Of a stretch of 64,000 nucleotides of DNA, positions 4,460-35,808 are shown in pieces. This stretch comes from Sinorhizobium americanum. GTDB lineage: Bacteria; Pseudomonadota; Alphaproteobacteria; Rhizobiales; Rhizobiaceae. The DNA lies in the NCBI RefSeq assembly GCF_001651855.1, contig NZ_LNQC01000077.1, forward strand, positions 153,255 to 217,254, in the 5' to 3' direction. The notes under the pieces are model-generated. The model was given only the letters and a program-made list of their open reading frames with translations, was not told where the DNA came from and searched no databases. Every line of letters starts with the position of its first letter. Positions within the stretch are counted from its first letter, which is position 1. The position numbers and the translations under genes are program-made.

Positions 4460-4593
4460 GGAAACATGCAAGCCGTGTCTTTGCAATTTCACGGCACTCC
4501 TGTATAGGCGTTCAAATCGATTTAAATCGGGACCGGAAGTGTGATTGCGCCGTGCTCTCCGCTCCGGCCCCGTGAGCTTGCCGGGGACGCAGC

Positions 4594-4974: not shown

Positions 4975-5017
4975 TACATCTTCGGAAACTATACGCGCGA
5001 GCCGGGACGAATCTGCC

Positions 5018-6037: not shown

Positions 6038-6122
6038 GCGGCGGGCCGATGCAAAGACTCGCCAAAGCAGCTTCAAACCACTATAGACCCCCGACACGTG
6101 GCGGCGACGTGCGGCATGCCAT

Positions 6123-6219
6123 TACAGCGCCGCGCGTCGCATCAGACGCGCAAAGGTCGCTGTAGCAGTTTGAATTGCTGCATGTTTCCTTAGATCGGCT
6201 AAGATCCAAGGAAACATGC
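6123..6219. repeat. two-hairpin palindromic intergenic element, copy 1
   Basis: Two consecutive stem-loops. The first spans TACAGCG (6123-6129) to CGCTGTA (6158-6164) with an inner CGCGTC/GACGCG pairing. The second pairs CATGTTTCCTT (6181-6191) with AAGGAAACATG (6208-6218). They are joined by a GCAGTTTGAATTGCTG linker. Clearly related sequence recurs at 49971-50060 (opposite orientation) and 50621-50662, with a weaker relic at 15283-15345, so this is a dispersed family. It ends about 25 bp before the exporter gene and may also act as a transcription or mRNA-stability signal. Confidence 0.8.
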
Positions 6220-6244
6220 AGAAAGGCCAGGGAAAACGGGCTTC

Positions 6245-8050
6245 TTGAACGCGACGAACAGCAAACAGCGCGCGATCGATTCCGAGACGATCACCGGAAT
6301 TTTGCGGCGCGTCATCGCCGAGAACGGTCGCGATCACATCCGGGGCTATGCCTTCGCGATTTCCTGCCTGATCGTCGTGGCGGCAACGACCGGCTTCACC
6401 GCCTGGATCATGGAAACGGTCGTCAACGAAGCCTTCGCCAACAGGCGGGCGGATATCGTGCTTGTGATCTGCGCCGCCATTTTCGCGGCCTTCGTCCTGC
6501 GCGGTCTGGCGACCTACGGTCAGGCGGTCGCGCTTTCGAAGATCGGCAACAACATCGTGGCGCGCTACCAGCGCCGGCTCTACTCACACATCATGGCGCT
6601 CAGCGTCGGCTATTTCCACGAGCATCGCTCGGCGCAGCTTGCGGCGAAGATCAGCCAAAACGTCAGCGGCATACGTGACGTGCTCAACATGACGGTCACA
6701 TCGATCGCCCGGGACTTCCTGACCCTGATCGGTCTGGTCGGCGTCATGTTCAGCAAGGACTGGCTGCTCTCGCTGATCGTTTTCTTCGTCGCGCCGCCGC
6801 TGTTCCTCGGACTGCGCTACATTTCGAGGCGTTTGCGGCTGGCGACACGCGAGGCCATCGAGGTCAACAGCCGGGTACTCGGGGCGATGCAGGAGACGAT
6901 CCAGGGCATCACCATCATCAAGGCCTTCACGATGGAGAACGAGCTCCGCCGCAAGGTCGAGACGATCATCGATCGGGCCGAGAACCGCGCAAACCGCATC
7001 GCGCGCCTGAGCGAGCGCACGGCGCCGATGACCGAAACCTTCGCGGGCCTGGCGATCTCCAGCGTGCTTGCCTATGCCGCCTTCCGGACGATCTACGGCA
7101 ACGTGCCTCCGGGCGCCTTCTTCGCCTTCGTCACGGCGCTTTTGATGGCCTATGATCCGGCCCGCCGCCTCGCACGGCTGCAGGTGTCGATGGAGCGCGC
7201 CGCCGTCAATGCCCGCATGATCTACGAGATCCTCGACACGGTTCCGCATCAGCGCGACCGGCCCGACGCCACCGAACTGAAACTCGGCGAGGCGACCGTC
7301 GAACTGCGCGATGTGCGCTTTTCCTATGCCAATGGCGATGAGATCCTTAAGGGCGTGAGCTTCCGGGCTGAGGGCGGCAAGACGACGGCGCTCGTCGGCC
7401 CGTCCGGTGCCGGCAAGTCGACCATCATTAGCCTCATCCCGCGCTTTTACGATCCGCAATCCGGCGAGATCCTGATCGACGGCCAGAACATCGCCGGCGT
7501 TACCAAGCAGTCGCTGCGCAACGGCCTCGCCTATGTCTCGCAGCAGCCTTATCTCTTCGAAGGCTCGATCCGCGACAATATCCGTTACGGCCGTCCCGAT
7601 GCCACGGATGAGGAAGTCGAGGAGGCCGCAAGGCTTGCCTATGCGCACGACTTCATCCTGGCGCAGCCGCAGGGCTACGACACGCCGGTCGGCGAGCATG
7701 GCGTGACGCTCTCCGGCGGCCAGCGGCAGCGCCTGTCGATCGCCCGCGCGCTGGTGCGCAACGCGCCGATCCTTCTTCTCGATGAGGCCACCTCGGCGCT
7801 CGACACCGAGTCCGAGGCCGCCGTGCAGAAGGCGCTCGACCAGGCGATGAGCGGGCGTACCGTCATCGTCATCGCCCACCGCCTCTCGACCGTCGTCAAT
7901 GCCGACAAGATCGTCGTGATGAAGGACGGCAGGGTCGTCGAGGAGGGGTCGCATGAGGAGCTTGCGCGGCGGCCGGACGGTCTCTACGCTCGCCTCCACA
8001 ATCTCCAGGGCAACGGCGCTGACCTGCCCGACGAAGCGAAAATCCTATAG
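6245..8050 (+). CDS. MsbA-like ABC exporter (fused membrane and ATPase domains)
   Basis: A 601-residue half-transporter. Six transmembrane helices occupy about residues 30-320 and are followed by an ABC ATPase domain. That domain has Walker A GPSGAGKSTI (about 388-397), a Q-loop around YVSQQPYLF, signature [15 protein letters not shown] (about 489-503), Walker B ILLLDEATSALD (about 509-520) and the switch His in IAHRLST. It fits the lipid A/multidrug exporter branch (MsbA), likely homodimeric in the inner membrane; actual substrate is unknown. The start is an in-frame TTG at 6245. No ATG exists before residue 45, and membrane topology supports the longer N-terminus. dapB follows 18 bp downstream. 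Confidence 0.88.
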   Translation: MNATNSKQRAIDSETITGILRRVIAENGRDHIRGYAFAISCLIVVAATTGFTAWIMETVVNEAFANRRADIVLVICAAIFAAFVLRGLATYGQAVALSKIGNNIVARYQRRLYSHIMALSVGYFHEHRSAQLAAKISQNVSGIRDVLNMTVTSIARDFLTLIGLVGVMFSKDWLLSLIVFFVAPPLFLGLRYISRRLRLATREAIEVNSRVLGAMQETIQGITIIKAFTMENELRRKVETIIDRAENRANRIARLSERTAPMTETFAGLAISSVLAYAAFRTIYGNVPPGAFFAFVTALLMAYDPARRLARLQVSMERAAVNARMIYEILDTVPHQRDRPDATELKLGEATVELRDVRFSYANGDEILKGVSFRAEGGKTTALVGPSGAGKSTIISLIPRFYDPQSGEILIDGQNIAGVTKQSLRNGLAYVSQQPYLFEGSIRDNIRYGRPDATDEEVEEAARLAYAHDFILAQPQGYDTPVGEHGVTLSGGQRQRLSIARALVRNAPILLLDEATSALDTESEAAVQKALDQAMSGRTVIVIAHRLSTVVNADKIVVMKDGRVVEEGSHEELARRPDGLYARLHNLQGNGADLPDEAKIL

Positions 8051-16726: not shown

Positions 16727-18349
<1,623 letters not shown>

Positions 18350-18473
18350 GCGGGGGAAAGACCTGATGGTGTTTGCGGGCACCCCTATGCCACGGGTCGG
18401 TGCCGCTGTCACGCGACCGGGTGCATCTTGCGGGCGCGAAGGTTCCGCGGGCAGCCGGTTTCAAATTGAGATA

Positions 18474-22336: not shown

Positions 22337-23698
22337 ATGACCCACCACAAGACGCTCGCCAGCCTTGCCGTTCTCGTACAGTCGGGACAATTGGATCCGG
22401 TCGCGCTCACAGAGGATACGTTGACGCGGATCGAGGGCCATGCGGACCAATCGATCTTCGTCGGGCTGACGCGAGGCCGCGCGGCGCGGGAGGCGAAAGC
22501 GGCCTCCGAACGCATCAACGCCGGCCGTTCCCGCGGCCTCATGGACGGCCTGCCGGTCGCCTGGAAGGATCTCTTCGACGTCGCCGGCAGCGTCACGGCC
22601 GCAGGCTCCGTCGTCCTCAAGGACAATGCACCGGCCTCTTCAGATGCGGCGGTCGTCGCGGCGGTCGGCAGCGCCGGCATGGTGAGCGTCGGCCGCACCA
22701 ATATGAGCGAGTTCGCCTTTTCCGGCCTCGGCATCAATCCGCATTACGGCACGCCGCGCAATCCAGCGTCGAACGACGTGCATCGGATTCCCGGCGGCTC
22801 CTCCTCCGGTTCGGCCGCAGCGATCGCCGCCGGGCTCGTGCCGCTGGCGATCGGCACCGACACCGGCGGGTCGGTGCGCATTCCGGCGGCAATGACCGGC
22901 ATTGTCGGCTACAAGGCGACGCGCGGGCGCTATGCGATGAAAGGCGTCTTCCCGCTCGCCCAGAGCCTCGATTCGCTGGGCCCCCTCTGCCACAGCGTGC
23001 AGGACGCCGTCTGGGCGGATGCGGCCATGCATGGCCTGACGGCGCCGGTGATCCGCCGCGCGGAGCTCGCCGATCTTTCGCTCGTCATCCCCGAGACGAT
23101 CGTCTTCGACGAGGCGGAGGCCGAGGTGGTCGCTGCCTTCGAGGCGGCGATCAAGCGGCTCGAGGTGGCTGGCGTCCGGGTGCGGCGCCAGGCCTTCCCG
23201 AGCTTCGCCGAGATCTTCGAGCTGACCGCCCGGCACGGCGGCCTGATAAACGCGGAGGCCTATGCCCTGCACCGCGAGCGGCTTGGCGGACCGGACGCCG
23301 CCCGGATGGACCCGCGGGTGGTCGTCCGTACGCGCCTCGGCGAGAAGGTCGCCGTCAGCGACTATATCGCTCTTCTCGACGCCCGCGACCGTCTGATCCA
23401 TGAGACCCTCGAGAGCCTGAAGCCCGGCGAACTGATTGTCCATCCGACGCTGCCGCATGTGGCACCGCCGATCGACCCGCTGCTTGCCGATGACGATCTG
23501 TTCTTCAAGGTGAACGCGAAGACGCTGCGCAATACGTCGATCGGCAATTTCCTCGACTTCTGCGGCGTCTCGATTCCTTGCGGCACCGGCGCCGCCGGCA
23601 TGCCGGCCGGCTTCCTCGTCTCCGCCCCGCATCATCAGGACGACCGATTGCTTTCCGCCGGGCTGGCACTCGAGGCGCTGATCCGGGGCGAGGCATGA
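22337..23698 (+). CDS. amidase signature-family amidohydrolase
   Basis: A 453-residue enzyme with the amidase-signature Ser-cisSer-Lys triad: the Lys in LPVAWKDLFDVAG near residue 75, the cis-Ser region PGGSSSGSAAAIAAG near 152-166, and the nucleophile loop GTDTGGSVRIPA near 173-184. It hydrolyses a carbon-nitrogen (amide) bond; the specific substrate is unknown. The ATG follows AGGGGGAAGCC. Its stop overlaps the start of the ROK kinase gene by 4 bp (ATGA), and that gene overlaps cutC the same way, making a tightly coupled three-gene operon. An acyl-amino-sugar or small amide substrate would fit the neighbours but is speculation. Confidence 0.9.
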   Translation: MTHHKTLASLAVLVQSGQLDPVALTEDTLTRIEGHADQSIFVGLTRGRAAREAKAASERINAGRSRGLMDGLPVAWKDLFDVAGSVTAAGSVVLKDNAPASSDAAVVAAVGSAGMVSVGRTNMSEFAFSGLGINPHYGTPRNPASNDVHRIPGGSSSGSAAAIAAGLVPLAIGTDTGGSVRIPAAMTGIVGYKATRGRYAMKGVFPLAQSLDSLGPLCHSVQDAVWADAAMHGLTAPVIRRAELADLSLVIPETIVFDEAEAEVVAAFEAAIKRLEVAGVRVRRQAFPSFAEIFELTARHGGLINAEAYALHRERLGGPDAARMDPRVVVRTRLGEKVAVSDYIALLDARDRLIHETLESLKPGELIVHPTLPHVAPPIDPLLADDDLFFKVNAKTLRNTSIGNFLDFCGVSIPCGTGAAGMPAGFLVSAPHHQDDRLLSAGLALEALIRGEA

Positions 23699-24606
23699 TC
23701 GTCTGCTTCGATATCGGCGGGTCGGCGATCAAGGGCGCGATTACCCATTCGCCGGAGCGTATCTTCCCGCTGCCGCGGCGGACGACGCCGCTCAATGACT
23801 TCCGCCGCTTCGTCGAAACGATGGAATCGGTGCTCGACGAGGCGGGCGGCCTTCCCGATCGGGTCGCGATCTCGATCACCGGCGTTATCGATCCGGAAAC
23901 GCGGCGAATCAAATGCGCCAACATCCCCTGCATCGACGGCCGCGAACTGACGGCCGAGCTCGAAGCGGCGCTGCATCTGCCGGTGGTGATCGCCAATGAC
24001 GCCGACTGCTTCGCGCTGGCGGAAGCGGGAATCGGCGCCGGCCGTGGCCATCGCATCGTCTTCGGCGCGATCCTCGGTACCGGCGTCGGCGGCGGCCTCG
24101 TGGTGGATGGCAGGCTGATCAATGCCGATGGCGGCTTTGCCGGAGAATGGGGACACGGGCCGGTCGCCGCGACCCTTGCCGGGCACCCGCCCATCGCTAT
24201 CCCCACCTTCGACTGCGGTTGCGGCCAGCGCGGCTGCGTCGACACCATCGGCGGCGCGCGCGGGCTTGAGCGCCTGCACGAGACGATCCATGGCAGGACG
24301 CTTTCCAGTGCCGAAATCATTGAGATCTGGCAGAGCGGAGAGGCCGAGGCGGCGCGCACGGTCGACATCTTCATCGACCTCGTCAGCTCGCCGCTGGCGC
24401 TCGTCGTCAACATCACCGGCGCGACGATCGTGCCCGTCGGCGGCGGCCTCTCCAATTCCGAAGCGCTGTTGGCCGAGATCGACCGGGCGGTGCGTCAGCG
24501 CATCCTCCGCCGCTTCGAAAGACCGCTCGTCGTGCGCGGCGAATGCCGGGTGGAGCCCGGCCTGATCGGCGCCGCACTGCTCGGCTTCGGAGGGCAAGCC
24601 CGATGA
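23695..24606 (+). CDS. ROK family sugar kinase (N-acetylglucosamine kinase-like)
   Basis: A 303-residue kinase of the ROK family: phosphate loop CFDIGGSAIKGAI at residues 4-16, catalytic Asp in IANDADCFALAE near 98-109, LGTGVGGGLVVDG near 124-136, the substrate motif GEWGHGPV near 148-155, and the ROK zinc cluster CGCGQRGCVDTIGG near 175-188. This fits NagK-type phosphorylation of GlcNAc or a similar hexosamine to its 6-phosphate. Start and stop overlap the amidase and cutC genes by 4 bp each. It converges on nagA across a short gap, so its product could feed the NagA step. Confidence 0.9.
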   Translation: MIVCFDIGGSAIKGAITHSPERIFPLPRRTTPLNDFRRFVETMESVLDEAGGLPDRVAISITGVIDPETRRIKCANIPCIDGRELTAELEAALHLPVVIANDADCFALAEAGIGAGRGHRIVFGAILGTGVGGGLVVDGRLINADGGFAGEWGHGPVAATLAGHPPIAIPTFDCGCGQRGCVDTIGGARGLERLHETIHGRTLSSAEIIEIWQSGEAEAARTVDIFIDLVSSPLALVVNITGATIVPVGGGLSNSEALLAEIDRAVRQRILRRFERPLVVRGECRVEPGLIGAALLGFGGQAR

Positions 24607-25340
24607 GCGGCATCCTGCTCGAGGTTTGCGTCGACGATGCCAAAGGCCTGGCAGCCGCGGTCGAGGGCGGCGCCGACCGCATCGAACTCTGCTCGGCGCT
24701 TGCCGTCGGCGGGTTGACCCCGAGCGCCGGGCTGATGGCGCTCGCAGCCCACACGCCGGTGCCGGTCTACGCGATGGTCCGGCCCCGTCCCGGCGATTTC
24801 GTCTTCAATGCCGCCGAACTCGACATCATGCGCCACGACATCGATGCGGCGCGCGCCGCGGGCCTCGCCGGCGTGGTGCTTGGGGCATCACAGGCCAACG
24901 GCCGGCTCGACGCGCAAACACTCGCCGAACTCACCCGCCATGCCTCCGGCCTCGGGCTGACGCTGCACCGGGCCTTCGATCTGGTGCCGGATTTCGCCGA
25001 GGCTATTTCGGTTGCCGCCGCACTCGGCTTCGAGCGCATCCTGACCTCGGGTGGCGCCAGGACCGCGCCGGCAGCGGTCGACAGGCTGGAGGAACTGGTG
25101 GACCTGGCTGCCGGACGGCTGTCGATCATGCCCGGCTCCGGCGTCACGGTGGAGACGATCGATCAGCTCATGCCGAGATTGTGCGTCATCGAGGTTCATT
25201 CCTCTTGCTCGGTTCGTGAGCCGGCTACCGATGCGCGAATGGTCGAAATGGGCTTTGCGCCGGCGGTGGCCCGCCGCACGGATGCGGCGACCGTCAGGGC
25301 GATCAAGGCGCGGCTGGACGCCATCCCGGCAGGGGTTTAG
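24603..25340 (+). CDS. cutC: CutC family protein
   Basis: A 245-residue TIM-barrel protein. It has the family opening LLEVCVDDAKGLAAAVEGGADRIELCSALAVGGLTPS (residues about 5-41), the YAMVRPRPGDF motif near 57-67, LTLHRAFDLVPD near 119-130 and LTSGGARTAP near 146-155. CutC was named for copper sensitivity in E. coli, but direct copper handling by bacterial CutC is disputed. Here it is translationally coupled to a ROK sugar kinase and sits next to amino-sugar genes, a context that hints at a sugar-related enzyme. Its GTG/ATG choice is clear: ATG at 24603 overlaps the kinase stop. Confidence 0.92.
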   Translation: MSGILLEVCVDDAKGLAAAVEGGADRIELCSALAVGGLTPSAGLMALAAHTPVPVYAMVRPRPGDFVFNAAELDIMRHDIDAARAAGLAGVVLGASQANGRLDAQTLAELTRHASGLGLTLHRAFDLVPDFAEAISVAAALGFERILTSGGARTAPAAVDRLEELVDLAAGRLSIMPGSGVTVETIDQLMPRLCVIEVHSSCSVREPATDARMVEMGFAPAVARRTDAATVRAIKARLDAIPAGV

Positions 25341-25383: not shown

Positions 25384-26541
25384 CTAAGCCGCAAAGACCC
25401 GCTCACCACCGATCCAGGTCGACTTCATGCCGAGCTCCGGCGTCAGCAGCACGAAGTCGGCGTCGGTACCGGGCAGGAGACGGCCCTTGTGCGAGGCGAT
25501 GCCCATGACGTCGGCGGGGTAGGCAGACGCCATGCGGATCGCTTCCTCCATCGGCAGGCCGAGCTTTTCGTGCACGAAGCGGACGGAGGAGAGCATGTCG
25601 ATATCGGCGCCGGCAAGGGTGCCGTCGGCAAGCGTCAGGCGCCCGTCCTTGCGCAGGATCTCGCGGCCGTTCAGGAAGAAGCTCGTCATGTCGGTGCCGA
25701 TCGGCGACATGGCGTCGGTTACCAGGAAGATCTGTGCTGGTCCCCGTTTGCCGCGCAGCGCAATGCCCATCGATGCCGGGTCGACGTGGAAGCCGTCGGC
25801 GATTATCCCGGCGTGCAGCGTGCCGGTCGCAAGCGCGGCGCCGACGACGCCGGGCTCACGGTGGCCGAGGCCGCTCATGGCGTTGAAGAGATGCGTGACG
25901 GTTCGGGCGCCCGCCTTCGCATAGGCGCAGGCCGTCTCGAAGCCGACATCCGTATGGCCGAGGCTGACGACGATGCCAGCGTCGGCAAGGGCGCGAACCT
26001 GCTCCTTCGTGGTGTTCTCCGGAGCGACGGTGACCATCAATGAGCCGAGCGCGTTGACGCAGGCAAGCATCTCCGTCAGATCGGCGTCCTCCATCGGGCG
26101 TATCAGCGCCGGATCGTGCGCGCCCTTGCGGGCGACCGAAAGATGCGGGCCTTCCAGGTGCAGGCCGAGGAAGCCGGGCACAGCCGCGGCCCTGGCCGCG
26201 ACGCCGGCCTCGATTGACTTAGTGCGGATCTCGCGCGTGTCGGTGATCAGCGTCGGCAGCAGCGCCGTCGTGCCGAATTTCGCATGCGCGGCGCAAATCT
26301 GCCTGATGCCGTCGAGGGTCGGCTCTTCGTTGAGCAGCGCGCCGCCTCCGCCGTTCACCTGCAGGTCGATGAAGCCCGGCACCAGCAGCAGGCCGCGCGC
26401 GTCGATCGTCTCGGCATCGCCGGAAGCGCCGCTCGCGACGATGCCCTTGACATGCCCCGCCTCGATGAGGAGCGCGCATCCGTCGTGCCAATCGATACCG
26501 TCGAAAATCCGCGCTCCGGTGATCTTCCTTTTGCCAGTCAT
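25384..26541 (-). CDS. nagA: N-acetylglucosamine-6-phosphate deacetylase
   Basis: A 385-residue amidohydrolase-fold enzyme converting GlcNAc-6-phosphate to glucosamine-6-phosphate and acetate. Diagnostic stretches are VPGFIDLQVNGGGG (about residues 55-68), GLHLEGPHLSVARKGAH near 125-141 with the metal-binding Glu, VSLGHTDVGFE, HLFNAMSGLGHREPGVVGAAL near 216-236 and the catalytic Asp in VTDAMSPIG near 273-281. It is last in the leftward amino-sugar operon and overlaps the SIS-domain gene by 4 bp. A GGAG ribosome site precedes the ATG at 26541. Confidence 0.95.
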   Translation of the reverse strand: MTGKRKITGARIFDGIDWHDGCALLIEAGHVKGIVASGASGDAETIDARGLLLVPGFIDLQVNGGGGALLNEEPTLDGIRQICAAHAKFGTTALLPTLITDTREIRTKSIEAGVAARAAAVPGFLGLHLEGPHLSVARKGAHDPALIRPMEDADLTEMLACVNALGSLMVTVAPENTTKEQVRALADAGIVVSLGHTDVGFETACAYAKAGARTVTHLFNAMSGLGHREPGVVGAALATGTLHAGIIADGFHVDPASMGIALRGKRGPAQIFLVTDAMSPIGTDMTSFFLNGREILRKDGRLTLADGTLAGADIDMLSSVRFVHEKLGLPMEEAIRMASAYPADVMGIASHKGRLLPGTDADFVLLTPELGMKSTWIGGERVFAA

Positions 26542-27560
26542 CGTGTCTCCGTTACCTTCTTCAGGCTCGCCGGTGCATCCGGGTTCAAGCCGCGCGAGCG
26601 CGACCAGGCTTCGACGAAGCCGTAGAATGGCAGGATCAGCGCCAGTGCGTCGGTGAGCGGGTGGCCGGTCGCGACGAAGGGCAGGCGCTTTGCCTTTTGG
26701 GCCCTGGCAGAGGTGACATGCACCACCGCTCCCTTGGCACTCATGCCGTCGGCAATCTCGGCGACCGAGCCCTCGGCGGCGTCACGGGCGGCGAGCACCA
26801 GAACCGGGAAGCGGGCGCCGACGAGCGCCACCGGTCCGTGCAGCACCTCCGCCGCGGAATAGGCCTCGGCGTGCATGCCTGACGTCTCCTTGAACTTCAG
26901 CGCCGCTTCGCTGGCGATCGCCAGCGCCGGGCCGCGGCCGAGCACATAGAGCGATTCGGCCTCGCCGAGATCGGCGGCGAAATTCTGCCAATCGAGCTTC
27001 ACCGCCTTGGCGAACTGGTTCGGCAGGTCGGCGACGGCGCGCTTCAGGCTCGTATCACCGGTCCATTCGCCGAGGACGGCGAGGCCGGCGACAATTGAGT
27101 TAACATAGGATTTGGTCGCCGCTACGGCGAGTTCAGGACCGGCGAGAATATCGAGCGGGTGGCTGCAGGCATCGGCGATCGGCGAAGGCAGCGTGTTCGT
27201 CAGGGCGATCGAGACGGCGCCGGCCCGCGTTGCGGCCTCGGCCATCGCCACGATGTCCGGACTCTTGCCGGACTGCGAGATGGCGATCGCCGCCGCACCG
27301 CCGAGCTTCAGTTCAGCACCGTAGATCGAGGCCAGCGAGGGTCCGAGCGACGCGACGGGACGCCCGGCCGTGAGCTCGATCGCATATTTCAAGAACAGGG
27401 CCGCGTGATCGGAGGAGCCTCGGGCGATCGTCACCAGAAAGGCCGGATCCTTGGCGCGAAGCGCGGTGCCGGCAGCGGCGACGGCGGCGGCCGAGCGGTC
27501 GAGCAATCGTGCGGCGGCCTCAGGAATCTCGTCGATTTCTCGCCGCATATTGGTCTGCAT
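26538..27560 (-). CDS. SIS-domain glucosamine-6-phosphate deaminase/isomerase (NagB-II type)
   Basis: A 340-residue protein with two SIS sugar-phosphate isomerase domains, matching the isomerase half of glucosamine synthase GlmS without the glutaminase domain. It opens MRREIDEIPEA; the first SIS is at about residues 40-160 (IARGSSDHAALFLKYAIE, ISQSGKSPDIVAMAEAAT) and the second at about 200-320 (LYVLGRGPALAIASEAALKFKETSGMHAEAYSAAEVLHGPVAL). Such stand-alone proteins act as NagB-II deaminases, converting GlcN-6-P to Fru-6-P and ammonia. That is exactly the step after NagA, whose gene it overlaps by 4 bp. AGGA lies 7-8 bp upstream of the ATG. Confidence 0.88.
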   Translation of the reverse strand: MQTNMRREIDEIPEAAARLLDRSAAAVAAAGTALRAKDPAFLVTIARGSSDHAALFLKYAIELTAGRPVASLGPSLASIYGAELKLGGAAAIAISQSGKSPDIVAMAEAATRAGAVSIALTNTLPSPIADACSHPLDILAGPELAVAATKSYVNSIVAGLAVLGEWTGDTSLKRAVADLPNQFAKAVKLDWQNFAADLGEAESLYVLGRGPALAIASEAALKFKETSGMHAEAYSAAEVLHGPVALVGARFPVLVLAARDAAEGSVAEIADGMSAKGAVVHVTSARAQKAKRLPFVATGHPLTDALALILPFYGFVEAWSRSRGLNPDAPASLKKVTETR

Positions 27561-27629
27561 CGTCAGGTCCTTTCCTGAATAGGTTCGGAGCGGTAAGCGA
27601 GCCGCCTACACTGCGCCTGATACGTCGGC

Positions 27630-28394
27630 TCAGCTTTCCGGGATCGTCAGCTCCGCGACAAAGTCATAGGTGTCGCCCCGATAGAGCGAGCGGGTGAATT
27701 CGACGACGCGCCCCGAAGCGAGATAGGAGACGCGCTCGATCGACAGACCGGCCGCCCCGACGGCGACTCCGAGCATCGTCGCATCGGGGTTCTTGATGTT
27801 GCAGGCCGAAATCCGCTGCACCGCCCGCACCGGTCGGGCATGCGATTTTTCAAGCGCGGAATAGAGCGACGAGGTCACGGCGAGCGGATCGGGGACGAAC
27901 TCGGCCGAAACGCAGGCGCGCTCGATGGCAAGCGGCATGTCGTCGGCAAGGCGCAGCCGCCCGAGGCGCGCGACCAGCGCATCGGCGGGAAGGCCGAGCG
28001 TCATCATCTCGTCGGGCGACGGGTGGAAAAGCCCCCGCTCCAGCCATTCGGCGCGGGTGTTGAGACCGCGCCGGGCCATGTCCTCGGTAAAGGAGGTGAG
28101 CCGCGACAGCGACTGCTCGACGCGCGAGACCGGCCGGACGACGAAGGTGCCGGAGCCGTGGCGACGCACGAGCAGCCCGTCGCGCACCAGGTCGTCGACG
28201 GCCTTGCGGACGGTCACGCGGCTGACATTGGCGTAGTCCGCGAGGTCCCGCTCGGCGGGCAGCGCATCGCCATGATTGAGCTTGCCCGACAGGATCGCCT
28301 CTTCCAGCGATTGCCGGAGCTTGAGGTAAAGCGGGCCGGCACCGCCCGATTGGAGGCTTTCGAGCGGCAGGATGGCGGCAAGCTGCTGGTTCAT
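27630..28394 (-). CDS. GntR family regulator, HutC subfamily (probable amino-sugar repressor)
   Basis: A 254-residue regulator. The winged-helix GntR domain spans about residues 20-85 (PLYLKLRQSLEEAILSGKL, ALPAERDLADYANVSRVTVRKAVDDL, LLVRRHGSGTFV), and a UTRA effector domain spans about 105-250. UTRA regulators of this type (NagR/DasR-like) commonly sense amino-sugar phosphates. The ATG overlaps the kinase gene stop by 4 bp, with GGAGG upstream. It probably binds the two matching 18-bp sites between the divergent operons, repressing both until an amino-sugar phosphate appears; this is inference. Confidence 0.9.
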   Translation of the reverse strand: MNQQLAAILPLESLQSGGAGPLYLKLRQSLEEAILSGKLNHGDALPAERDLADYANVSRVTVRKAVDDLVRDGLLVRRHGSGTFVVRPVSRVEQSLSRLTSFTEDMARRGLNTRAEWLERGLFHPSPDEMMTLGLPADALVARLGRLRLADDMPLAIERACVSAEFVPDPLAVTSSLYSALEKSHARPVRAVQRISACNIKNPDATMLGVAVGAAGLSIERVSYLASGRVVEFTRSLYRGDTYDFVAELTIPES

Positions 28395-29275
28395 AGAACC
28401 GCCTCCGGGCCAGTTCCAAAGCGGGCGGCGGCAAGGGCAACAGCTCCGGTCAGCGCGTCGGCTTCCGCCTCGACGAAGAGCGGCTGATGCCGTTCGGCCA
28501 GCCAGGGTCGGTAAAGCGGCGCCAATCCGCCGAGCAGGCAGATCGTCCGGCTGCCCCTGGAGACGACCACGTCAAGCGCCTCGTCCACGGTCGCGGCGGC
28601 CGCCTTCAACAGGCGCGTCGCCACGGGATCGCCGCGCCCGGCATGGTCGAAGACGCGGGGCGCGTAGCGACCGAATTCGCCTGGCTTCGCCAGCCGCGCA
28701 AAATCGACGACGTCGCGCGGATCGTCGTTGAATTCGGAGAGGACGGAATCGGTCACCGGCGAGGCTTCGTGAATCCGGTCATAGGCAAGCAGGCTCTCCT
28801 GCAGCAGCGCGTGGCCGATGCGGGCGCCGCTGCCGTGATCGCCAATCGCAAAACCCCAGCCGCCGATATAGCTGACCGCTTCACCCTGGCGAGCGATATA
28901 GATCGTACCGGTTCCGAGAATGGCGACGGCCCCGTCCCTGTCGCCAAGCGCACCCTGAAGCGCGATCAAGCCATCCGATTCGATATCGGCCGCGGCGAAG
29001 GGCAAGCGCCGCTTCACATAATGGACGGCATCGCCGACATTGTGCCCCGCGACGCCGACAATCGCACGCGCCGAGGCCATGCCGGCCGGATCGAGACTCG
29101 CATCCTCGAAAGCCGCGCGGGCGGCATCGGCAATGTTCTGCAGCGCCGTTTCAGGATCGCTCAGAATATTGGCGGCACCGGATTTGCCGCGGCCGAGGAT
29201 ATGGCCGTCCGGACCGGCGACAGCCGCCCGACAGCTCGTTCCGCCGCCATCAATTCCGATCAGATAGGATGTCAT
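28391..29275 (-). CDS. BadF/BadG/BcrA/BcrD-family sugar kinase (GlcNAc/MurNAc kinase, MurK-like)
   Basis: A 294-residue ASKHA-fold kinase. The phosphate-1 loop is YLIGIDGGGTSCRAAV near residues 4-19, with IVGVAGHNVGDAV near 70-82, the ILGTGTIYIARQG loop near 118-130, GGWGFAIGDHGSGARIG near 136-152 and LLGGLAPLYRPWL near 255-267. The family includes mammalian and bacterial GlcNAc kinases and clostridial MurK, which phosphorylates both MurNAc and GlcNAc. Beside a MurQ-family gene, MurK-like activity is attractive. The start at 29275 (MTSYLIG) has CGGAGG five bases upstream; a GTG two codons earlier is possible. First gene of the leftward operon. Confidence 0.87.
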   Translation of the reverse strand: MTSYLIGIDGGGTSCRAAVAGPDGHILGRGKSGAANILSDPETALQNIADAARAAFEDASLDPAGMASARAIVGVAGHNVGDAVHYVKRRLPFAAADIESDGLIALQGALGDRDGAVAILGTGTIYIARQGEAVSYIGGWGFAIGDHGSGARIGHALLQESLLAYDRIHEASPVTDSVLSEFNDDPRDVVDFARLAKPGEFGRYAPRVFDHAGRGDPVATRLLKAAAATVDEALDVVVSRGSRTICLLGGLAPLYRPWLAERHQPLFVEAEADALTGAVALAAARFGTGPEAVL

Positions 29276-29296
29276 TGGCACCTCCGCCGACTAACA

Positions 29297-29314
29297 TACC
29301 AAAAAAATACCATT
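29297..29314. promoter_or_regulatory. candidate GntR operator, leftward operon
   Basis: TACCAAAAAAATACCATT (29297-29314), 22 bp upstream of the kinase start, matches the reverse complement of the site at 29428-29445 in 16 of 18 positions. Its presence once in front of each divergent transcript argues for a specific regulatory site. Confidence 0.7.
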
Positions 29315-29427
29315 AACCAAGTGCGATTCCGCCAAGCCAATGTCATTTGCATCATCTGATTGATTTTTATTTGATAATTTTGAAGCGACGCGTTTTATTT
29401 CGGCAGACGTTAAATTTCTCCTAGACA

Positions 29428-29445
29428 ATTGGTATTTTTTTGGCA
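29428..29445. promoter_or_regulatory. candidate GntR operator, rightward operon
   Basis: ATTGGTATTTTTTTGGCA (29428-29445), 29 bp before the murQ start, is an inverted copy of the site at 29297-29314. The 113 bp between them is AT-rich for this genome and holds no gene; it should contain the two divergent promoters. Confidence 0.7.
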
Positions 29446-29473
29446 TTAATTTGAGAAAGAGGAGAACGACGCG

Positions 29474-30370
29474 ATGCCGGCAGTGAAGACCGAAGAGCGC
29501 CACGATAAAGCCAAGGGCCTGGACCTGATGGATCCGGCGCTTGCGCTTCGCGTGCTCGCCGCTGGTCAGCAGGCGGCGGCAAAGGCCGTCGATGCGGCGA
29601 TCGAACCGATCGCATGCGCGGCGGCGCTAGCAGCGAGCATTCTTTCCGCGGGTGGCCGGCTTGCCTATGCGGGCGCCGGCAGCTCCGGCCTGATGGCGAT
29701 GGCGGACGCACTCGAGCTGCCGGGCACCTATGGCATTTCACAGCAGCAGATCATTATTCTTCTGGCCGGCGGCGCCGCAAGCCTCGGCGATCTTGCCGGT
29801 GGCTACGAGGACGACACGGAGCTTGCCCGCACCGACGTCCGCGAGGCGGGGATTGCAGTCGGTGACTGCCTCATCTCGGTTTCCGCCAGCGGCTGGACAC
29901 CCTATGCGCTCGCCGCTGCGGAAGAAGCCAGGAAGCGCGGTGCCAAGGTCATTGCGATGGCCAACAACCCCGACGCGCCGCTGTTCGAGCGCGCCGATGT
30001 CTCTATCCTGCTCAGGACACCGCCGGAGGTCATTTCCGGCTCGACGCGCATGGGCGCCGGCACGGCGCAGAAGATCGCCTTCAACATGTTTTCGACGCTG
30101 GTCGGCATCCATCTCGGCCACGTGCTCGACGGCCACATGGTCAATCTCAGGGCCGACAATATCAAGCTCAACGCCCGCGCCATCCGGATCGTCTCCGATA
30201 TCACCGGCGTTTCTGCCGGTGAAGCCGAAAGACTGATCGGCGCCGCCTCCGGATCGGTCAAGCTGGCGATCCTGCTCGCTTTTGGCGCTGAGGACCTGCC
30301 GGCGGCCGAAGCAGCGCTTGCCAATGCCGATCAGAATTTGCGCCGGGCGATCGCCATCGTCACGGCCTGA
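29474..30370 (+). CDS. murQ: N-acetylmuramic acid 6-phosphate etherase family protein
   Basis: A 298-residue SIS-fold enzyme. MurQ cleaves the D-lactyl ether of MurNAc-6-P, giving GlcNAc-6-P and lactate. Aligned by eye with E. coli MurQ, both catalytic glutamates are kept: one in DALELPGTYG (near residue 82) and one in GGYEDDTE (near 113). SASGWTPYALAAAEEARKRGAKV and PEVISGSTRMGAGTAQKIAFNM also match. The phosphate loop AGAGSSGLMAM differs from the usual GTSGRL. The sequence is divergent from enterobacterial MurQ, so a related ether substrate remains possible. It heads the rightward operon, ahead of a sugar ABC importer, and has AAAGAGGAGAACG upstream. Confidence 0.85.
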   Translation: MPAVKTEERHDKAKGLDLMDPALALRVLAAGQQAAAKAVDAAIEPIACAAALAASILSAGGRLAYAGAGSSGLMAMADALELPGTYGISQQQIIILLAGGAASLGDLAGGYEDDTELARTDVREAGIAVGDCLISVSASGWTPYALAAAEEARKRGAKVIAMANNPDAPLFERADVSILLRTPPEVISGSTRMGAGTAQKIAFNMFSTLVGIHLGHVLDGHMVNLRADNIKLNARAIRIVSDITGVSAGEAERLIGAASGSVKLAILLAFGAEDLPAAEAALANADQNLRRAIAIVTA

Positions 30371-30427
30371 ACGATAAACTGGGATCCAAACCGCGCCGTA
30401 GCGGCGCCTATAAGAGGGAGAACCTGA

Positions 30428-31687
30428 ATGACCCGTACGACAATCAAAGGCTTGCTGCTCGCATCGAGCATTCTCGGCTCGGCCGGGCTTGTGCAAGCCC
30501 AGGACAAGACGCTGACGATCGAGAGCTGGCGCAACGACGATCTGACGATCTGGCAGGAAAAACTGATCCCCGCCTTCGAGGCCAAGAACCCGGGCATCAA
30601 GGTGGTCTTCTCGCCCTCGGCCCCGACCGAATACAACGCGGCGCTCAACGCCAAGCTCGATGCTGGATCGGCCGGCGACCTCATCACCTGCCGGCCGTTC
30701 GACCCCTCGCTGGAGCTCTACAACAAGAAGCACCTCGCCGACCTGACGGGCCTAGCCGGCATGGAGAATTTCTCCGACGTCGCCAAGTCCGCCTGGACCA
30801 CCGATGACGGCAAGGTGACCTTCTGCGTGCCGATGGCCTCGGTCATCCACGGCTTCATCTACAACAAGGATGCCTTCGACCAGCTCAAGCTGTCCGTGCC
30901 GACGACCGAAGAAGAATTTTTTGCCGTGCTCGATAAGATCAAGGCCGACGGCAACTACATCCCGATGGCAATGGGCACCAAGGATCTCTGGGAGGCCGCG
31001 ACCATGGGCTACCAGAATATCGGCCCGAACTACTGGAAGGGCGAGGAAGGCCGTCTCGCGCTGATCAAGGGCGAACAGAAGCTGACCGACGATGCCTGGG
31101 TCGAGCCGTATCGCGTGCTCGCCAAGTGGAAGGACTATCTCGGCGACGGCTTCGAGGCACAGACCTATCCGGACAGCCAGAACCTCTTCACGCTCGGCCG
31201 CGCCGCGATCTATCCGGCCGGCTCGTGGGAAATCTCCGGCTTCAACACGCAGGCGCAGTTCAAGATGGGCGCCTTCCCGCCGCCGGTGAAGAAGGCCGGC
31301 GACACCTGCTACATCTCCGACCATACCGACATCGGCATCGGCCTCAACCCCAAGAGCCCGAACGCGGAAGCCGCCAAGACGTTCCTGACCTGGGTCGCCT
31401 CGCCGGAATTCGCGGATATCTATGCCAACGCGCTGCCCGGCTTCTTCAGCCTGAACTCGACCGCCGTGAAGATGACCGACCCGCTCGCCCAGGAATTCGT
31501 CTCCTGGCGTGAGAAGTGCAAGTCGACGATCCGTTCGACCTACCAGATCCTGTCGCGCGGCACGCCGAACCTCGAAAACGAGACCTGGGTGGAATCGGCC
31601 AACGTCATCAACGGCACCAGCACGCCGGAAGACGCCGCCAAGAAGCTGCAGGAAGGCCTCGACAGCTGGTACAAGCCGGCCAAGTAA
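30428..31687 (+). CDS. sugar ABC transporter substrate-binding protein (family 1)
   Basis: A 419-residue periplasmic protein with a signal peptide (GLLLASSILGSAGLVQA, cleavage near residue 24 before QDK). An SBP_bac_1 fold follows, with typical segments LTIESWRNDDLTIWQEKLIPAFE, YNAALNAKLDAGSAGDLITC, and GRAAIYPAGSWEISGF. The C-terminal KLQEGLDSWYKPAK is usual for oligosaccharide-binding proteins. It lies 57 bp after murQ with a GAGGGAG ribosome site, and before two permeases, so its ligand is probably an amino sugar or murein-derived saccharide (inferred). A strong hairpin follows its stop, which should make it more abundant than the permeases. Confidence 0.92.
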   Translation: MTRTTIKGLLLASSILGSAGLVQAQDKTLTIESWRNDDLTIWQEKLIPAFEAKNPGIKVVFSPSAPTEYNAALNAKLDAGSAGDLITCRPFDPSLELYNKKHLADLTGLAGMENFSDVAKSAWTTDDGKVTFCVPMASVIHGFIYNKDAFDQLKLSVPTTEEEFFAVLDKIKADGNYIPMAMGTKDLWEAATMGYQNIGPNYWKGEEGRLALIKGEQKLTDDAWVEPYRVLAKWKDYLGDGFEAQTYPDSQNLFTLGRAAIYPAGSWEISGFNTQAQFKMGAFPPPVKKAGDTCYISDHTDIGIGLNPKSPNAEAAKTFLTWVASPEFADIYANALPGFFSLNSTAVKMTDPLAQEFVSWREKCKSTIRSTYQILSRGTPNLENETWVESANVINGTSTPEDAAKKLQEGLDSWYKPAK

Positions 31688-31699
31688 GACCGAAAAGGA

Positions 31700-31727
31700 G
31701 CGCGCGGCCCGGCCGGCCGCGCGCTTT
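31700..31727 (+). terminator. hairpin terminator/attenuator after the binding-protein gene
   Basis: GCGCGCGGCC (31700-31709) pairs perfectly with GGCCGCGCGC (31715-31724) around a 5-nt loop, followed by TTTCCT. The weak U-tract suggests partial termination or 3'-end protection. The remaining 190 bp before the first permease gene hold no recognisable gene. Confidence 0.65.
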
Positions 31728-31921
31728 CCTATGCCCCGCGCGAACGCGGGCAAACGACGCCGCAGTTTTGTTGAGACCGGCGCCAGGCCGGGACATGACC
31801 GACCGCCGGCTTTGCCGGAGATCACGAGAGCTTGTGATGAAGCACGTGGCGGCATGGAACGCGGCATTTCGAAATGGGGCTGTGCTCCTAGAGCCAGCCA
31901 TTGGGAACGGGCCAGAGGCCG

Positions 31922-32869
31922 ATGAAACCACGCGAAACCACATTGGAAGTCGGCGAGCTCAAGCGCCCGCGGCGCTGGCACATCCTCGTCTTTCTGCTGC
32001 CGGCGCTCATCGTCTACACGGCGGTGATGATCTTGCCGCTGATCGAGACGCTGCGGCAATCCTTCTACAATACCGTCGACGGCCAATATGCATTCGTCGG
32101 CCTCGGCAATTTCAAGGTGCTGTTCGGCGACCCGCGCTGGGCCGCGGATTTCTGGAATGCGCTCCGCAACAACTTCGTCTTCTTCCTCATCCACATGGCG
32201 GTGCAGAACCCGATCGGCATTGCGCTCGCCGCCATGCTGTCGATCCCGAAGCTGCGCTTCAGCGCCTTCTACCGCACGGCGATCTTCCTGCCGACGCTCT
32301 TGTCCTTCGTGATCGTCGGCTTCATCTGGAAGCTGATCCTCTCGCCGATCTGGGGTGTGGCGCCCTACCTCATGGATCTCGTCTGGCTGAAGTGGCTGTT
32401 CGCGCCGTGGCTCGGCCGGCCCGATTCCGCGCTGATCGCGGTCTCGCTGATCTCTGTCTGGCAATATGTCGGCATCCCGATGATGCTGATCTATGCGGCT
32501 CTCCTCAACATCCCCGATGAGGTGATCGAGGCGGCGGAGCTCGACGGCGTCACCGGCTGGAGCCAGTTCTGGAAGATCAAGCTGCCCTTGGTCCTGCCAG
32601 CGATCGGCATCGTCTCGATCCTGACTTTCGTCGGCAACTTCAACGCCTTCGACCTGATCTACACGGTTCAGGGCGCGCTTGCAGGCCCGGACGGCTCGAC
32701 GGACATCCTCGGCACGCTGCTCTACCGCACCTTCTTCGGCTTCCAGCTCCAGCTCGGCGACCGTTCGATGGGCGCGACGATCGCGGCGATCATGTTCCTG
32801 ATCATCTTGGCCGGCGTGTCGCTCTACCTCTTCGTCATCCAGCGCCGCATGCGCCGCTATCAGTTCTGA
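31922..32869 (+). CDS. sugar ABC transporter permease (MalF-type)
   Basis: A 315-residue inner-membrane protein with about six hydrophobic segments (first helix WHILVFLLPALIVYTAVMILPL near residues 21-42). The EAA loop is ALLNIPDEVIEAAELDGVTGWSQFWKIKLPLVLP near 196-229. This is the carbohydrate-uptake CUT1 class, as first permease. The ATG at 31922 has AGAGG upstream; a TTG at 31901 is a weaker alternative. The second permease starts 8 bp after its stop. Confidence 0.92.
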   Translation: MKPRETTLEVGELKRPRRWHILVFLLPALIVYTAVMILPLIETLRQSFYNTVDGQYAFVGLGNFKVLFGDPRWAADFWNALRNNFVFFLIHMAVQNPIGIALAAMLSIPKLRFSAFYRTAIFLPTLLSFVIVGFIWKLILSPIWGVAPYLMDLVWLKWLFAPWLGRPDSALIAVSLISVWQYVGIPMMLIYAALLNIPDEVIEAAELDGVTGWSQFWKIKLPLVLPAIGIVSILTFVGNFNAFDLIYTVQGALAGPDGSTDILGTLLYRTFFGFQLQLGDRSMGATIAAIMFLIILAGVSLYLFVIQRRMRRYQF

Positions 32870-32876
32870 GGAGGAC

Positions 32877-33722
32877 ATGAGCATGTCGAAAGCACGAACC
32901 TCCTTCGCCCGCACCGGCGCCGTCCATGTCGCGCTGATCGCCTATACGCTGGTGGCGCTATTCCCGGTGTTCCTGACGATCGCCAACTCTTTCAAGAGCC
33001 GCAATGCGATCTTCCGCGAGCCGTTGGCGATCCCGACTCCCGAGACGTTCAGCCTGATCGGCTACGAGACGGTGCTGAAGCAGGGCGATTTCATCGGCTA
33101 TTTCCAGAACAGCGTCGTCGTCACCGTCGTTTCGATCGCGCTGGTGCTGCTGTTCGGTGCCATGGCCGCCTTCGCGCTCTCCGAATACCGCTTCCGCGGC
33201 AATACGCTGATGGGGCTCTATCTGGCGCTCGGCATCATGATCCCGATCCGCCTCGGCACGGTGGCGATCCTGCAGGGCATGGTGGCGACCAACCTCGTCA
33301 ACACGCTGACGGCGCTGATCCTCGTCTATACGGCGCAGGGCCTGCCGCTCGCGGTCTTCATCCTGTCGGAATTCATGCGAACCGTCTCGGACGACCTGAA
33401 AAATGCCGGACGCATCGACGGGCTCTCCGAATATGCGATCTTCTTCCGCTTGGTGCTGCCGCTTATAAGGCCAGCAATGGCGACGGTCGCGGTCTTCACC
33501 ATGATCCCGATCTGGAACGACCTGTGGTTCCCCTTGATCCTGGCGCCGGCGGAGACGACCAAGACCGTGACACTCGGCTCGCAGATCTTCATCGGCCAGT
33601 TCGTCACCAATTGGAACGCGGTCCTGTCGGCGCTGTCGCTGGCGATCTTCCCGGTGCTCGTCCTCTACGTCATCTTTTCGCGGCAGCTGATCCGCGGCAT
33701 CACGGCAGGAGCGGTGAAATGA
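32877..33722 (+). CDS. sugar ABC transporter permease (MalG-type)
   Basis: A 281-residue inner-membrane protein, the second CUT1 permease, with about six helices. The EAA motif is EFMRTVSDDLKNAGRIDGLSEYAIFFRLVLPL near residues 166-197. It starts 8 bp after the first permease (GAGGACATGAGC gives the ribosome site), and its TGA overlaps the ATG of the oxidoreductase gene by 4 bp, so these genes are coupled. Confidence 0.92.
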   Translation: MSMSKARTSFARTGAVHVALIAYTLVALFPVFLTIANSFKSRNAIFREPLAIPTPETFSLIGYETVLKQGDFIGYFQNSVVVTVVSIALVLLFGAMAAFALSEYRFRGNTLMGLYLALGIMIPIRLGTVAILQGMVATNLVNTLTALILVYTAQGLPLAVFILSEFMRTVSDDLKNAGRIDGLSEYAIFFRLVLPLIRPAMATVAVFTMIPIWNDLWFPLILAPAETTKTVTLGSQIFIGQFVTNWNAVLSALSLAIFPVLVLYVIFSRQLIRGITAGAVK

Positions 33723-34783
33723 GTTCTTCCGCAAATCCGATCCACGTCCTCGTGGCCGGGCTCGGCAATATGGGGCGCAGCCATGCGCTCGCCTATCACC
33801 AGAACCCCGGCTTCGAGATCGCCGGCCTCGTCAACCGCTCGAAGGTCGAACTGCCGAAGGCGCTCGCTGGCTACGAGGTCCTGCCCTCCTTCCGGGAAGC
33901 TCTCCTCGAGCTCCGGCCGGAGCTCTGCTCGATCAACACCTATTCGGACAGCCACGCGGCCTATGCGGTCACCGCGATGGAGGCCGGTTGCCACGTCTTC
34001 GTGGAGAAGCCGCTGGCGACCACGGTCGCCGATGCCGAGCGGGTCGTCGCCTGCGCCCGGGCCAATGGCCGCAAACTCATCGTCGGCTATATCCTGCGCC
34101 ACCATCCCTCCTGGATGCGGCTGATCGCTGAGGCGCGCAAGCTCGGGCCTCCCTATGTCTTCCGCATGAACCTGAACCAGCAGTCGAGCGGAGATACCTG
34201 GGCGACGCACAAGTCGCTGATGCAGACGACCGCGCCGATTGTCGACTGCGGCGTCCATTATGTCGACGTCATGTGCCAGATCACCGACGCGAAACCGGTC
34301 GAGGTGCGCGGCATGGGCCTGAGGCTCTCCGACGAGATCGCCGCCGACATGTACAACTACGGCCACCTGCAGGTGATCTTCAAGGACGGCTCGGTCGGCT
34401 GGTACGAGGCCGCCTGGGGGCCGATGATCTCCGAGACCGCCTTCTTCGTGAAGGACGTGATCTCGCCGAACGGGTCGGTGTCGATCGTCATGGACCAGGC
34501 TGCCAAGTCCGATGACATCGACGTGCATACCAAGACCGCCGTCATCCGCCTGCACAGCGCGGCGACCGGTCCGGACGGCCGTTTCCTGATACCCGACGAG
34601 GACCTTCAGATGGAAGGTGAACCGGGCCACCAGGACCTTTGCGACCGCGAACAGGCCTTCGTGCTCAAGGCCATTCGCGAAGACATCAATCTCGACCGGC
34701 ACATGGACGATGCGGTGCAGTCGCTGAAGATCTGCCTGGCGGCGGACGAAAGCGTTCGTACCGGCCGGCCGGTCAAGCTCTAA
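33719..34783 (+). CDS. Gfo/Idh/MocA family oxidoreductase
   Basis: A 354-residue NAD(P)-dependent dehydrogenase. The Rossmann fold is [20 protein letters not shown] at about residues 8-27. The family motif [15 protein letters not shown] near 92-106 contains the catalytic Lys, and a GFO_IDH_MocA C-terminal domain follows, including [10 protein letters not shown] near 178-187 where a conserved His normally helps catalysis. Substrates in this family are sugars, inositols or sugar acids. Its 4-bp overlap with a permease gene means it belongs to the importer operon, suggesting it oxidises the imported sugar or a side-chain sugar; identity unknown. Confidence 0.88.
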
Positions 34784-34800
34784 CCCAAGAGGGGCGACAC

Positions 34801-35808
34801 GTGGGATCACTGCAACTCCAATCCATCCGCAAGTCCTATGGCGGCCATGAGGTGCTGAAGGGCATCGACCTCGAGGTGAAGGACGGCGAATTCGTCATCT
34901 TCGTCGGACCCTCGGGCTGCGGAAAATCGACCCTGCTCCGGACCATTGCCGGCCTCGAGGACGCGACGTCCGGCAGCGTGCAGATCGACGGGGTCGAAGT
35001 CGGGCACGTCGCACCGGCGAAACGCGGCATCGCCATGGTCTTCCAGTCCTATGCGCTTTACCCGCACCTGACGGTGAAGGACAATATAAGCCTGGGCTTA
35101 AAGCAGGCCGGCGTGCCGAAGCCCGAGATCGACGACAAGGTCCGTAAGGCGGCCGGCATGCTGTCGCTCGACCCCTATCTCGCCCGCCGCCCGGCCGAGC
35201 TTTCCGGCGGCCAACGGCAACGCGTGGCGATCGGCCGCGCCATCGTGCGCGAGCCGAAACTGTTCCTCTTCGACGAGCCGCTGTCGAACCTCGATGCGGC
35301 GCTGCGCGTCAATACCCGCCTCGAAATCGCCCGGCTGCATCGCAGCCTCAAGGCGACGATGATCTATGTCACCCACGACCAGGTCGAGGCGATGACGCTC
35401 GCCGACAAGATCGTCGTCCTGAACGGAGGCCGTATCGAACAGGTCGGCTCGCCGATGGAACTCTACAACCGTCCCGCCAATCTCTTCGTCGCCGGCTTCA
35501 TCGGCTCGCCGCAGATGAACTTCATCGACGGCGAAAAGTTCGGCGACAGTGCCAAGACGGTCGGTATCCGCCCCGAACATATCGGCCTGTCGCGCGACGG
35601 TGGCAAGTGGAAGGCGAAGGTCATCCATGTCGAACATCTCGGCGCCGACACCATCGTCTATCTGGAGTCCGATGATGTCGGGCCGCTGACGGTGCGGCTG
35701 TTCGGCGAGCACCGCTATGCGGCCGACGACGTCGTCCACGCCACCCCGGTGATCGGCGGCCTGCATCGCTTCGACGCCGATGGCCGGGTGATCAATTCCG
35801 GGCAGTAA
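34801..35808 (+). CDS. sugar ABC transporter ATP-binding protein (UgpC/MsmK type)
   Basis: A 335-residue ATPase that energises the CUT1 importer. Walker [12 protein letters not shown] is near residues 36-46, the Q-loop is [14 protein letters not shown], signature [15 protein letters not shown] near 135-149, Walker [17 protein letters not shown] near 154-169, and the switch His is in YVTHDQVEA. The C-terminal 100 residues form the OB-fold (MOI) regulatory domain (IGRPEH-like IRPEHIGLS). It starts with GTG at 34801 after AAGAGGGGCGACAC; no nearer ATG fits the conserved N-terminus. It closes the rightward operon. Confidence 0.93.

Follow-up and report, generated by a model that had tools for sequence, protein, structure and literature searches.

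We analysed a 64,000-nucleotide stretch of the genome of Sinorhizobium americanum (contig NZ_LNQC01000077.1, positions 153,255 to 217,254; hereafter the window, whose own numbering we use). The genome is 6.65 Mb in 82 contigs, and the window holds a cluster of ten predicted amino-sugar genes at 25384-35808. All ten reading frames are open, with the strands and order claimed in a preliminary description of this DNA, and Pfam and NCBIfam models recognise each of them. Exactly 198 bp, from the ATG of a kinase gene (29275) to the ATG of murQ (29474), separate two divergent operons, also as described. The leftward operon encodes a BadF-family kinase, a GntR/UTRA regulator, a SIS protein and NagA, in that order; the rightward operon encodes a MurQ-family protein, a CUT1 solute-binding protein, two permeases, a Gfo/Idh/MocA oxidoreductase and an ATPase. 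We think it quite probable that this is a self-contained cluster for the uptake and catabolism of N-acetylglucosamine (GlcNAc) under the control of a NagQ-type regulator.

In the leftward operon (minus strand), the kinase gene lies at 28391-29275 and, from its ATG, is 885 nt long, which equals the annotation in S. meliloti. We predict that it encodes a NagK-type kinase for GlcNAc and possibly for N-acetylmuramic acid (MurNAc) too. Its sole NCBIfam match is NagK_SO3507 (188.5 bits, cut-off 370), and among PDB entries its best match is the probable NagK 1zc6 (108.7 bits), ahead of a hexokinase (61.7 bits) and the MurNAc/GlcNAc kinase 8zo3 (59.7 bits). The regulator (27630-28394) has GntR and UTRA domains and is putatively of the NagQ type within the GntR/HutC group, as NagQ-type direct repeats precede both operons. 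The SIS protein (26538-27560) has a SIS Pfam domain, and its best NCBIfam match is NagB_SO3506 (278.5 bits, cut-off 430); it is a predicted glucosamine-6-phosphate deaminase of the NagB-II type. By similarity, then, the kinase and the SIS protein appear nearest to the Shewanella-type NagK and NagB-II, and both score below the cut-offs of those models. The last gene, nagA (25384-26541), encodes a GlcNAc-6-phosphate deacetylase that exceeds the cut-off of the equivalog-level model TIGR00221 (296.5 bits against 225.65).

In the rightward operon (plus strand), a gene for a MurQ-family MurNAc-6-phosphate etherase of a divergent clade (29474-30370) is followed by the gene for the binding protein (30428-31687), which is putatively a GlcNAc-binding protein of the nagTUVW type. 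The permeases both have BPD_transp_1 domains; the first gene (31922-32869, ATG at 31922) is equal in length to the S. meliloti annotation, and the second lies at 32883-33722 (ATG at 32883). The oxidoreductase (33719-34783, ATG at 33719) matches GFO_IDH_MocA. The importer's ATP-binding cassette (ABC) ATPase (34801-35808, GTG at 34801) is of the MalK/UgpC type, with ABC_tran and TOBE_2 domains and a score of 455.5 bits against NF008653, above its cut-off of 432. The EIIC component of the sugar phosphotransferase system (PTS; PF02378) had no match in this genome, and as a control the search was positive in 7 of 14 genomes. This agrees with the earlier view of a complete amino-sugar catabolic locus that has its own CUT1 importer and no PTS.

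To describe conservation we used three sets of loci, which carry L numbers. The family sample (Rhizobiaceae) has 61 genomes; MurQ has a match (E ≤ 0.001) in 33 of them, and 24, including S. americanum, have this type of cluster. We fetched 23 of these loci besides the window: 17 have the ten genes in order, four end at a contig end (L040, L049, L054 and L060), and two have no oxidoreductase (L045 and L050). The oxidoreductase of L060, which is one of the cut loci, is only 44% identical to ours. Of the 61 genomes, 28 encode the binding protein (E ≤ 1e-60), and their clusters include MurQ in 24 cases and the oxidoreductase in 26. MurQ is absent from the cluster in the other four (L067-L070), which retain the kinase, the regulator, the importer and the oxidoreductase; within the 20 kb fetched for each, NagA was not found in two and the SIS protein was not found in three. 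Among these four, the genome G040 encodes MurQ paralogues at other sites. Because 4 of the 28 genomes with the binding protein lack MurQ in the cluster, we consider MurQ to be an optional member.

When we searched species genomes with the MurQ alignment, we obtained 506 relatives, and the best 80 make up the second set, the named loci. All 80 are close relatives, so that the counts describe them and not the other 426; two of them duplicate genomes of the family sample. The preliminary description had proposed a search for the same gene order in other Hyphomicrobiales, and the order is indeed conserved: 79 of the 80 named loci hold the full ten-gene string. The exception, Rhizobium sp. Leaf371 (L132), has NagA, the SIS protein, the regulator, the kinase and MurQ, and has no importer behind MurQ. 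For the third set, we searched the class with the oxidoreductase as the query (E ≤ 1e-50), which gave 15 of 289 genomes; 13 of the 15, including our own, have MurQ in the same cluster. The oxidoreductase is found in the cluster in ten sampled families, including the Rhizobiaceae. Some of the class loci vary: in five (L203-L206 and L209), the oxidoreductase gene has been relocated within the cluster, to the side where NagA lies; L199 has no kinase and L202 has neither kinase nor regulator; the cluster of L210 lacks the oxidoreductase; and in L207 and L208 the oxidoreductase is the only one of the ten genes present. With 79 of the 80 named loci complete, the arrangement is far beyond chance.

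Regulation is part of our case for GlcNAc. NagQ binding sites are described as direct repeats of TGGTATT (PMC4494728; also PMC5343134). We found one such repeat, with a period of 11 bp, ahead of each operon: TGGTATTTTTTTGGTAT at 29296-29312 (minus strand), 20 bp before the start codon on the left, and TGGTATTTTTTTGGCAT at 29430-29446 (plus strand), 27 bp before the start codon on the right. The exact pattern occurs only twice in the 6.65-Mb genome, and both copies are in the divergent gap. If one mismatch is allowed, there are 13 further sites, or 15 in total versus 6 for the reversed pattern. We scanned the other loci with a slightly looser pattern, for which shuffled sequences averaged 0.0 matches. 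Among the 80 named loci, the right site is present in 78 and the left in 75; in the 22 readable family loci, the counts are 18 and 17; in the four loci without MurQ, three and two; and in 12 class loci, five and four. From these counts, the repeat is a strong feature of the family loci, and its occurrence across the class sample is uneven. We dropped another guessed site, TGGTCT-N5-TGGTCT, which with up to three mismatches had 41 matches versus 27.5 expected. Judging from the repeats, the cluster is probably controlled by a NagQ-type regulator, which would act as a repressor.

The nagTUVW genes of Ruegeria pomeroyi (SPO1835 and SPO1837-1839) encode a GlcNAc importer, as verified with mutants (PMC10130141). 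Their locus tags fit the order ATPase, a gap (where the oxidoreductase would be), two permeases and the binding protein. The ten genes of the cluster recur together on plasmids of Ruegeria sp. B32 and TM1040, whose binding proteins are 80% and 76% identical to ours. The likeness to nagTUVW rests on the order of the R. pomeroyi tags plus these sequences from other Ruegeria, which belong to another order (Rhodobacterales) than the window's host. By analogy, the importer of S. americanum would be a nagTUVW system; the transport of GlcNAc itself is known from R. pomeroyi. The evidence points to GlcNAc rather than MurNAc as the imported sugar. As a probable NagQ-type cluster for GlcNAc import and catabolism, the locus is of an ordinary kind.

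The pathway that we propose is as follows. The CUT1 importer (binding protein, two permeases and ATPase) would take up GlcNAc, and perhaps short saccharides that contain it. The BadF-family NagK would form GlcNAc-6-phosphate, NagA would deacetylate this to glucosamine-6-phosphate, and NagB-II would convert that to fructose-6-phosphate. NagQ would occupy one direct-repeat operator per operon, and an amino-sugar phosphate would probably release it. The divergent MurQ would be an add-on that converts MurNAc-6-phosphate to GlcNAc-6-phosphate; the most likely source of its substrate would be AnmK acting on recycled anhydro-MurNAc, or else the kinase acting on cytoplasmic MurNAc. The Gfo/Idh/MocA protein would be a sugar oxidoreductase dependent on nicotinamide adenine dinucleotide or its phosphate, tied to the transporter, and would probably convert some modified version of the sugar that is taken up.

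The evidence from the binding protein is mixed. Its best fold match, a binder of chitin oligosaccharides, favours GlcNAc. It scores 43.2 bits against TIGR03851, the model for the GlcNAc/chitobiose-binding protein NgcE, whose cut-off is 399.65. Fold and sequence results that weaken a chitin-type reading of this protein make GlcNAc import slightly less probable in our view, and MurNAc import slightly more so.

According to the preliminary description, the importer takes up MurNAc or MurNAc-containing saccharides, with the kinase and MurQ as a dedicated pathway. We now consider it unlikely that these are what the importer mainly carries. The position of MurQ does suggest this: apart from the window, all 23 family loci that we fetched have MurQ immediately before the binding protein, and so do 12 of 13 class loci whose cluster has both genes (in L202 their order is opposite). 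The lack of a PTS EIIC match in the genome also speaks for it. The kinase is ambiguous. A GGW pattern, readable in 97 of 123 kinases, can be placed by inference at the S133-P134-L135 stretch of MurK, and human NagK, with Gly at the position of P134, has no clash with MurNAc according to the MurK paper (PMC10465942). However, the kinase is nearest to NagK, and as the same paper states that MurNAc binding cannot be identified by sequence analysis, its specificity for GlcNAc is putative. What turns us from MurNAc import is the agreement of several other observations: the NagQ-type sites, the fold match to a chitin-oligosaccharide binder, the GlcNAc substrate of nagTUVW (PMC10130141), and the four of 28 family clusters that keep the kinase, the regulator, the importer and the oxidoreductase without MurQ. 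Also, mean identity to the window over the aligned pieces of the 80 named loci is 74% for MurQ versus 88% for the binding protein. GlcNAc has thus displaced MurNAc as our leading candidate; MurNAc import via the cluster is possible but unsupported, and we retain it as a rival. One arrangement that would fit it is on a plasmid of Sagittula sp. P11 (L243, 11009-17720), where genes for a GNAT acetyltransferase, a dipeptidase and another ABC importer, which has two permeases and two ATPases, lie behind the ten-gene cluster. This lineage may use muropeptides.

An importer for MurNAc would not be required if its phosphate arises inside the cell. AnmK is encoded elsewhere in the genome, so MurNAc-6-phosphate can form internally, and AnmK could supply MurQ without any imported MurNAc. 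We give nearly even chances to the view that MurQ serves only internal peptidoglycan recycling, with AnmK forming MurNAc-6-phosphate and MurQ passing it to the GlcNAc-6-phosphate pool, and this is compatible with GlcNAc import. In Agrobacterium tumefaciens, YejBEF-YepA imports muropeptides, which is a route independent of the cluster's importer (PMC9790009). On the other hand, transposon sequencing in A. tumefaciens implicates AnmK, MupP, AmgK and MurU in the use of recycled MurNAc, with which MurQ would compete (same paper), and A. tumefaciens strain MEJ076 (L141) also carries the ten-gene cluster, including MurQ. It is also conceivable, though decidedly doubtful, that MurQs of this clade have abandoned MurNAc-6-phosphate, and that they eliminate some other substituent or act on the product of the oxidoreductase. 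GSSGL replaces the GTSGR motif in the window's protein, and the residue after GSSG is never Arg in the 116 readable cluster MurQs (L060 is truncated by its contig end), versus 11 of 11 other MurQs with Arg. A tree separates 37 cluster MurQs from 11 other alphaproteobacterial MurQs with support of 99/99. Our protein reaches 219.7 bits against the MurQ equivalog TIGR00274, below the cut-off of 302, and the best of 13 cluster members scanned has E = 1.6e-71; with this model, L062's canonical paralogue reaches 435.6 bits. Against a change of substrate, the cluster MurQs keep the two residues that we take to be the catalytic glutamates. All 117 cluster sequences, of which 115 are distinct, have E81, and 116 have E112, with Asp in L202, so the claim of a MurQ-family protein with both glutamates held up. 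Most of the other SIS motif residues that we inspected are also retained, and the window's protein exceeds the cut-off of the broader subfamily model NF003915 (320 bits versus 168).

MurQ genes outside the cluster have other neighbours. A BadF-family kinase gene directly precedes a MurQ paralogue with the GTSGR motif in L065 (8457-10409) and in L066 (8467-10405), and two matches that resemble ABC ATPases lie 4-5 kb downstream. Both loci look like better candidates than the window's cluster for true MurNAc or muropeptide pathways. We also ran a Pfam scan on 10 mechanically picked reading frames near MurQ genes outside the cluster; six had no family and four had no evident pathway.

As the preliminary description noted, the oxidoreductase is outside the textbook pathway. 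It has both a Rossmann domain and the family's C-terminal domain, and its structure model has a mean predicted local distance difference test score of 93.9. Across 19 sequences, E96, P98, D176 and H180 are invariant and K97 is conserved in at least 90%; K97, D176 and H180 are presumably the catalytic positions of this family. The confident model, the invariant Asp176 and His180, and the nearly invariant Lys97 speak for an active enzyme.

Plasmids suggest what it might act on. The oxidoreductase matches 32 plasmid records, of which 24 also hold the binding protein (we compared the lists by eye). In Rhizobium sp. WYJ-E13 (L242), an aminotransferase and a PIG-L deacetylase precede the binding protein, the permeases, the oxidoreductase and the ATPase, with no Nag genes or MurQ within the stretch viewed. 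In Sinorhizobium sp. CCBAU 05631 (pSS05631a, L241/L235), the neighbours of a 50% identical relative are a PIG-L deacetylase and a sugar phosphate isomerase/epimerase, with a related importer across from it, and no Nag genes are within the stretch viewed. On two Deinococcus plasmids, the gene for a 57-58% identical binding protein precedes those for two permeases and two Gfo proteins. Given these three settings, the oxidoreductase often accompanies the transporter without MurQ. The plasmid settings suggest that its substrates are N-acetylated amino-sugar derivatives, and we think it probable that the enzyme converts the imported sugar or one of its derivatives. The loci in CCBAU 05631 and WYJ-E13 might also encode a pathway for N-acetylglucosaminyl compounds via deacetylation and oxidation. 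Separately, the 18.8-kb plasmid pTJ519 of Providencia rettgeri (L240) has, at 2032-6572, an MFS transporter, two Gfo genes (one product is 53% identical to ours) and a sugar phosphate isomerase/epimerase, which would be a small portable sugar pathway.

We rejected the idea that the oxidoreductase is a partner of MurQ alone. It is retained in the four family clusters without MurQ and in plasmid operons without MurQ from WYJ-E13 and R. leguminosarum, while MurQ is retained without it in L045, L050 and the class cluster L210. The strong class-wide pairing of the two genes (13 of 15) is a counterargument. A broader idea, unlikely in our view, is that the oxidoreductase and the divergent MurQ form one undescribed pathway for an imported modified GlcNAc compound, such as a GlcNAc glycoside or an anhydro- or muramyl saccharide. 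By analogy with NAD-dependent sulfoquinovosidases and NanOx-type sialic acid oxidoreductases, the oxidoreductase might open or activate the compound by reversible NAD-dependent oxidation, and MurQ might next act on the phosphorylated sugar by eliminating one of its substituents.

Three genes that flank the cluster (plus strand) are likely to be functionally tied to it. These encode an amidase (22337-23698; PF01425; 740.7 bits against NF004766, above 559), which is a possible accessory linked by neighbourhood only; a ROK kinase (23695-24606; PF00480), which may be a second GlcNAc kinase (190 bits against NF009835, the E. coli-type N-acetylglucosamine kinase, cut-off 380); and a CutC-family TIM-barrel protein (24603-25340; PF03932). 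Among the named loci, the ROK kinase is present in 51 of 80, the CutC-like protein in 62 of 80, and both together in 51 of 80; sometimes the pair is on the opposite side of the cluster (L144). Farther away, at 16727-18412 (minus strand), is an ABC-F family ATPase with 475.5 bits versus the cut-off of 380 of the ribosomal-protection-like model NF000355; it is just as likely to be of the housekeeping type.

As to novelty, MurNAc use had been predicted in 2017 from MurQ together with a GlcNAc pathway, and novel ABC systems are listed there as predicted for GlcNAc, among others (PMC5507952). So that part of the MurNAc reading was already published; in our literature search, which covered subscription journals thinly, we recognised no paper on the cluster's oxidoreductase or on a rhizobial ABC importer for MurNAc. 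Our analysis corrects the MurNAc reading and assigns a likely substrate to a transporter that is widespread in plant-associated and marine Alphaproteobacteria. What the textbook pathway does not account for is a conserved oxidoreductase, which accompanies a MurQ clade whose GTSGR motif is altered; this gap is testable.

In S. meliloti, we take the cluster to be SMc02869-SMc02878, with a GapMind annotation for GlcNAc. The gene order is the same in S. meliloti 4H41 (L086), whose proteins are 77-96% identical and whose cluster has an RND pump behind it, and we found no difference in layout from the window's cluster; Ak57 (L231) also has the same order, with an insertion sequence element ahead of the RND adaptor. 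The known MurNAc pathways are MurP-MurQ of E. coli and MurK of Clostridium. Like these, the window has a MurQ-family etherase and, as with MurK, a kinase in place of PTS phosphorylation (in part after PMC10465942 and PMC13041923). Unlike them, it has no match to PTS EIIC on its side, its MurQ is in a separate clade, and its kinase is nearest to NagK. For S. meliloti, SMc02873 is labelled a 'Multiple sugar-binding protein precursor' (PMC4941405) and SMc02867/02868 an efflux pump (PMC12542648). With the NagQ regulon of Proteobacteria, the cluster shares the GntR/HutC regulator, nagA, nagB and the NagQ direct repeats; the core of that regulon, as described in PMC5343134 and PMC4494728, includes a PTS transporter, whereas the window's cluster has an ABC importer, MurQ and the Gfo/Idh/MocA oxidoreductase.

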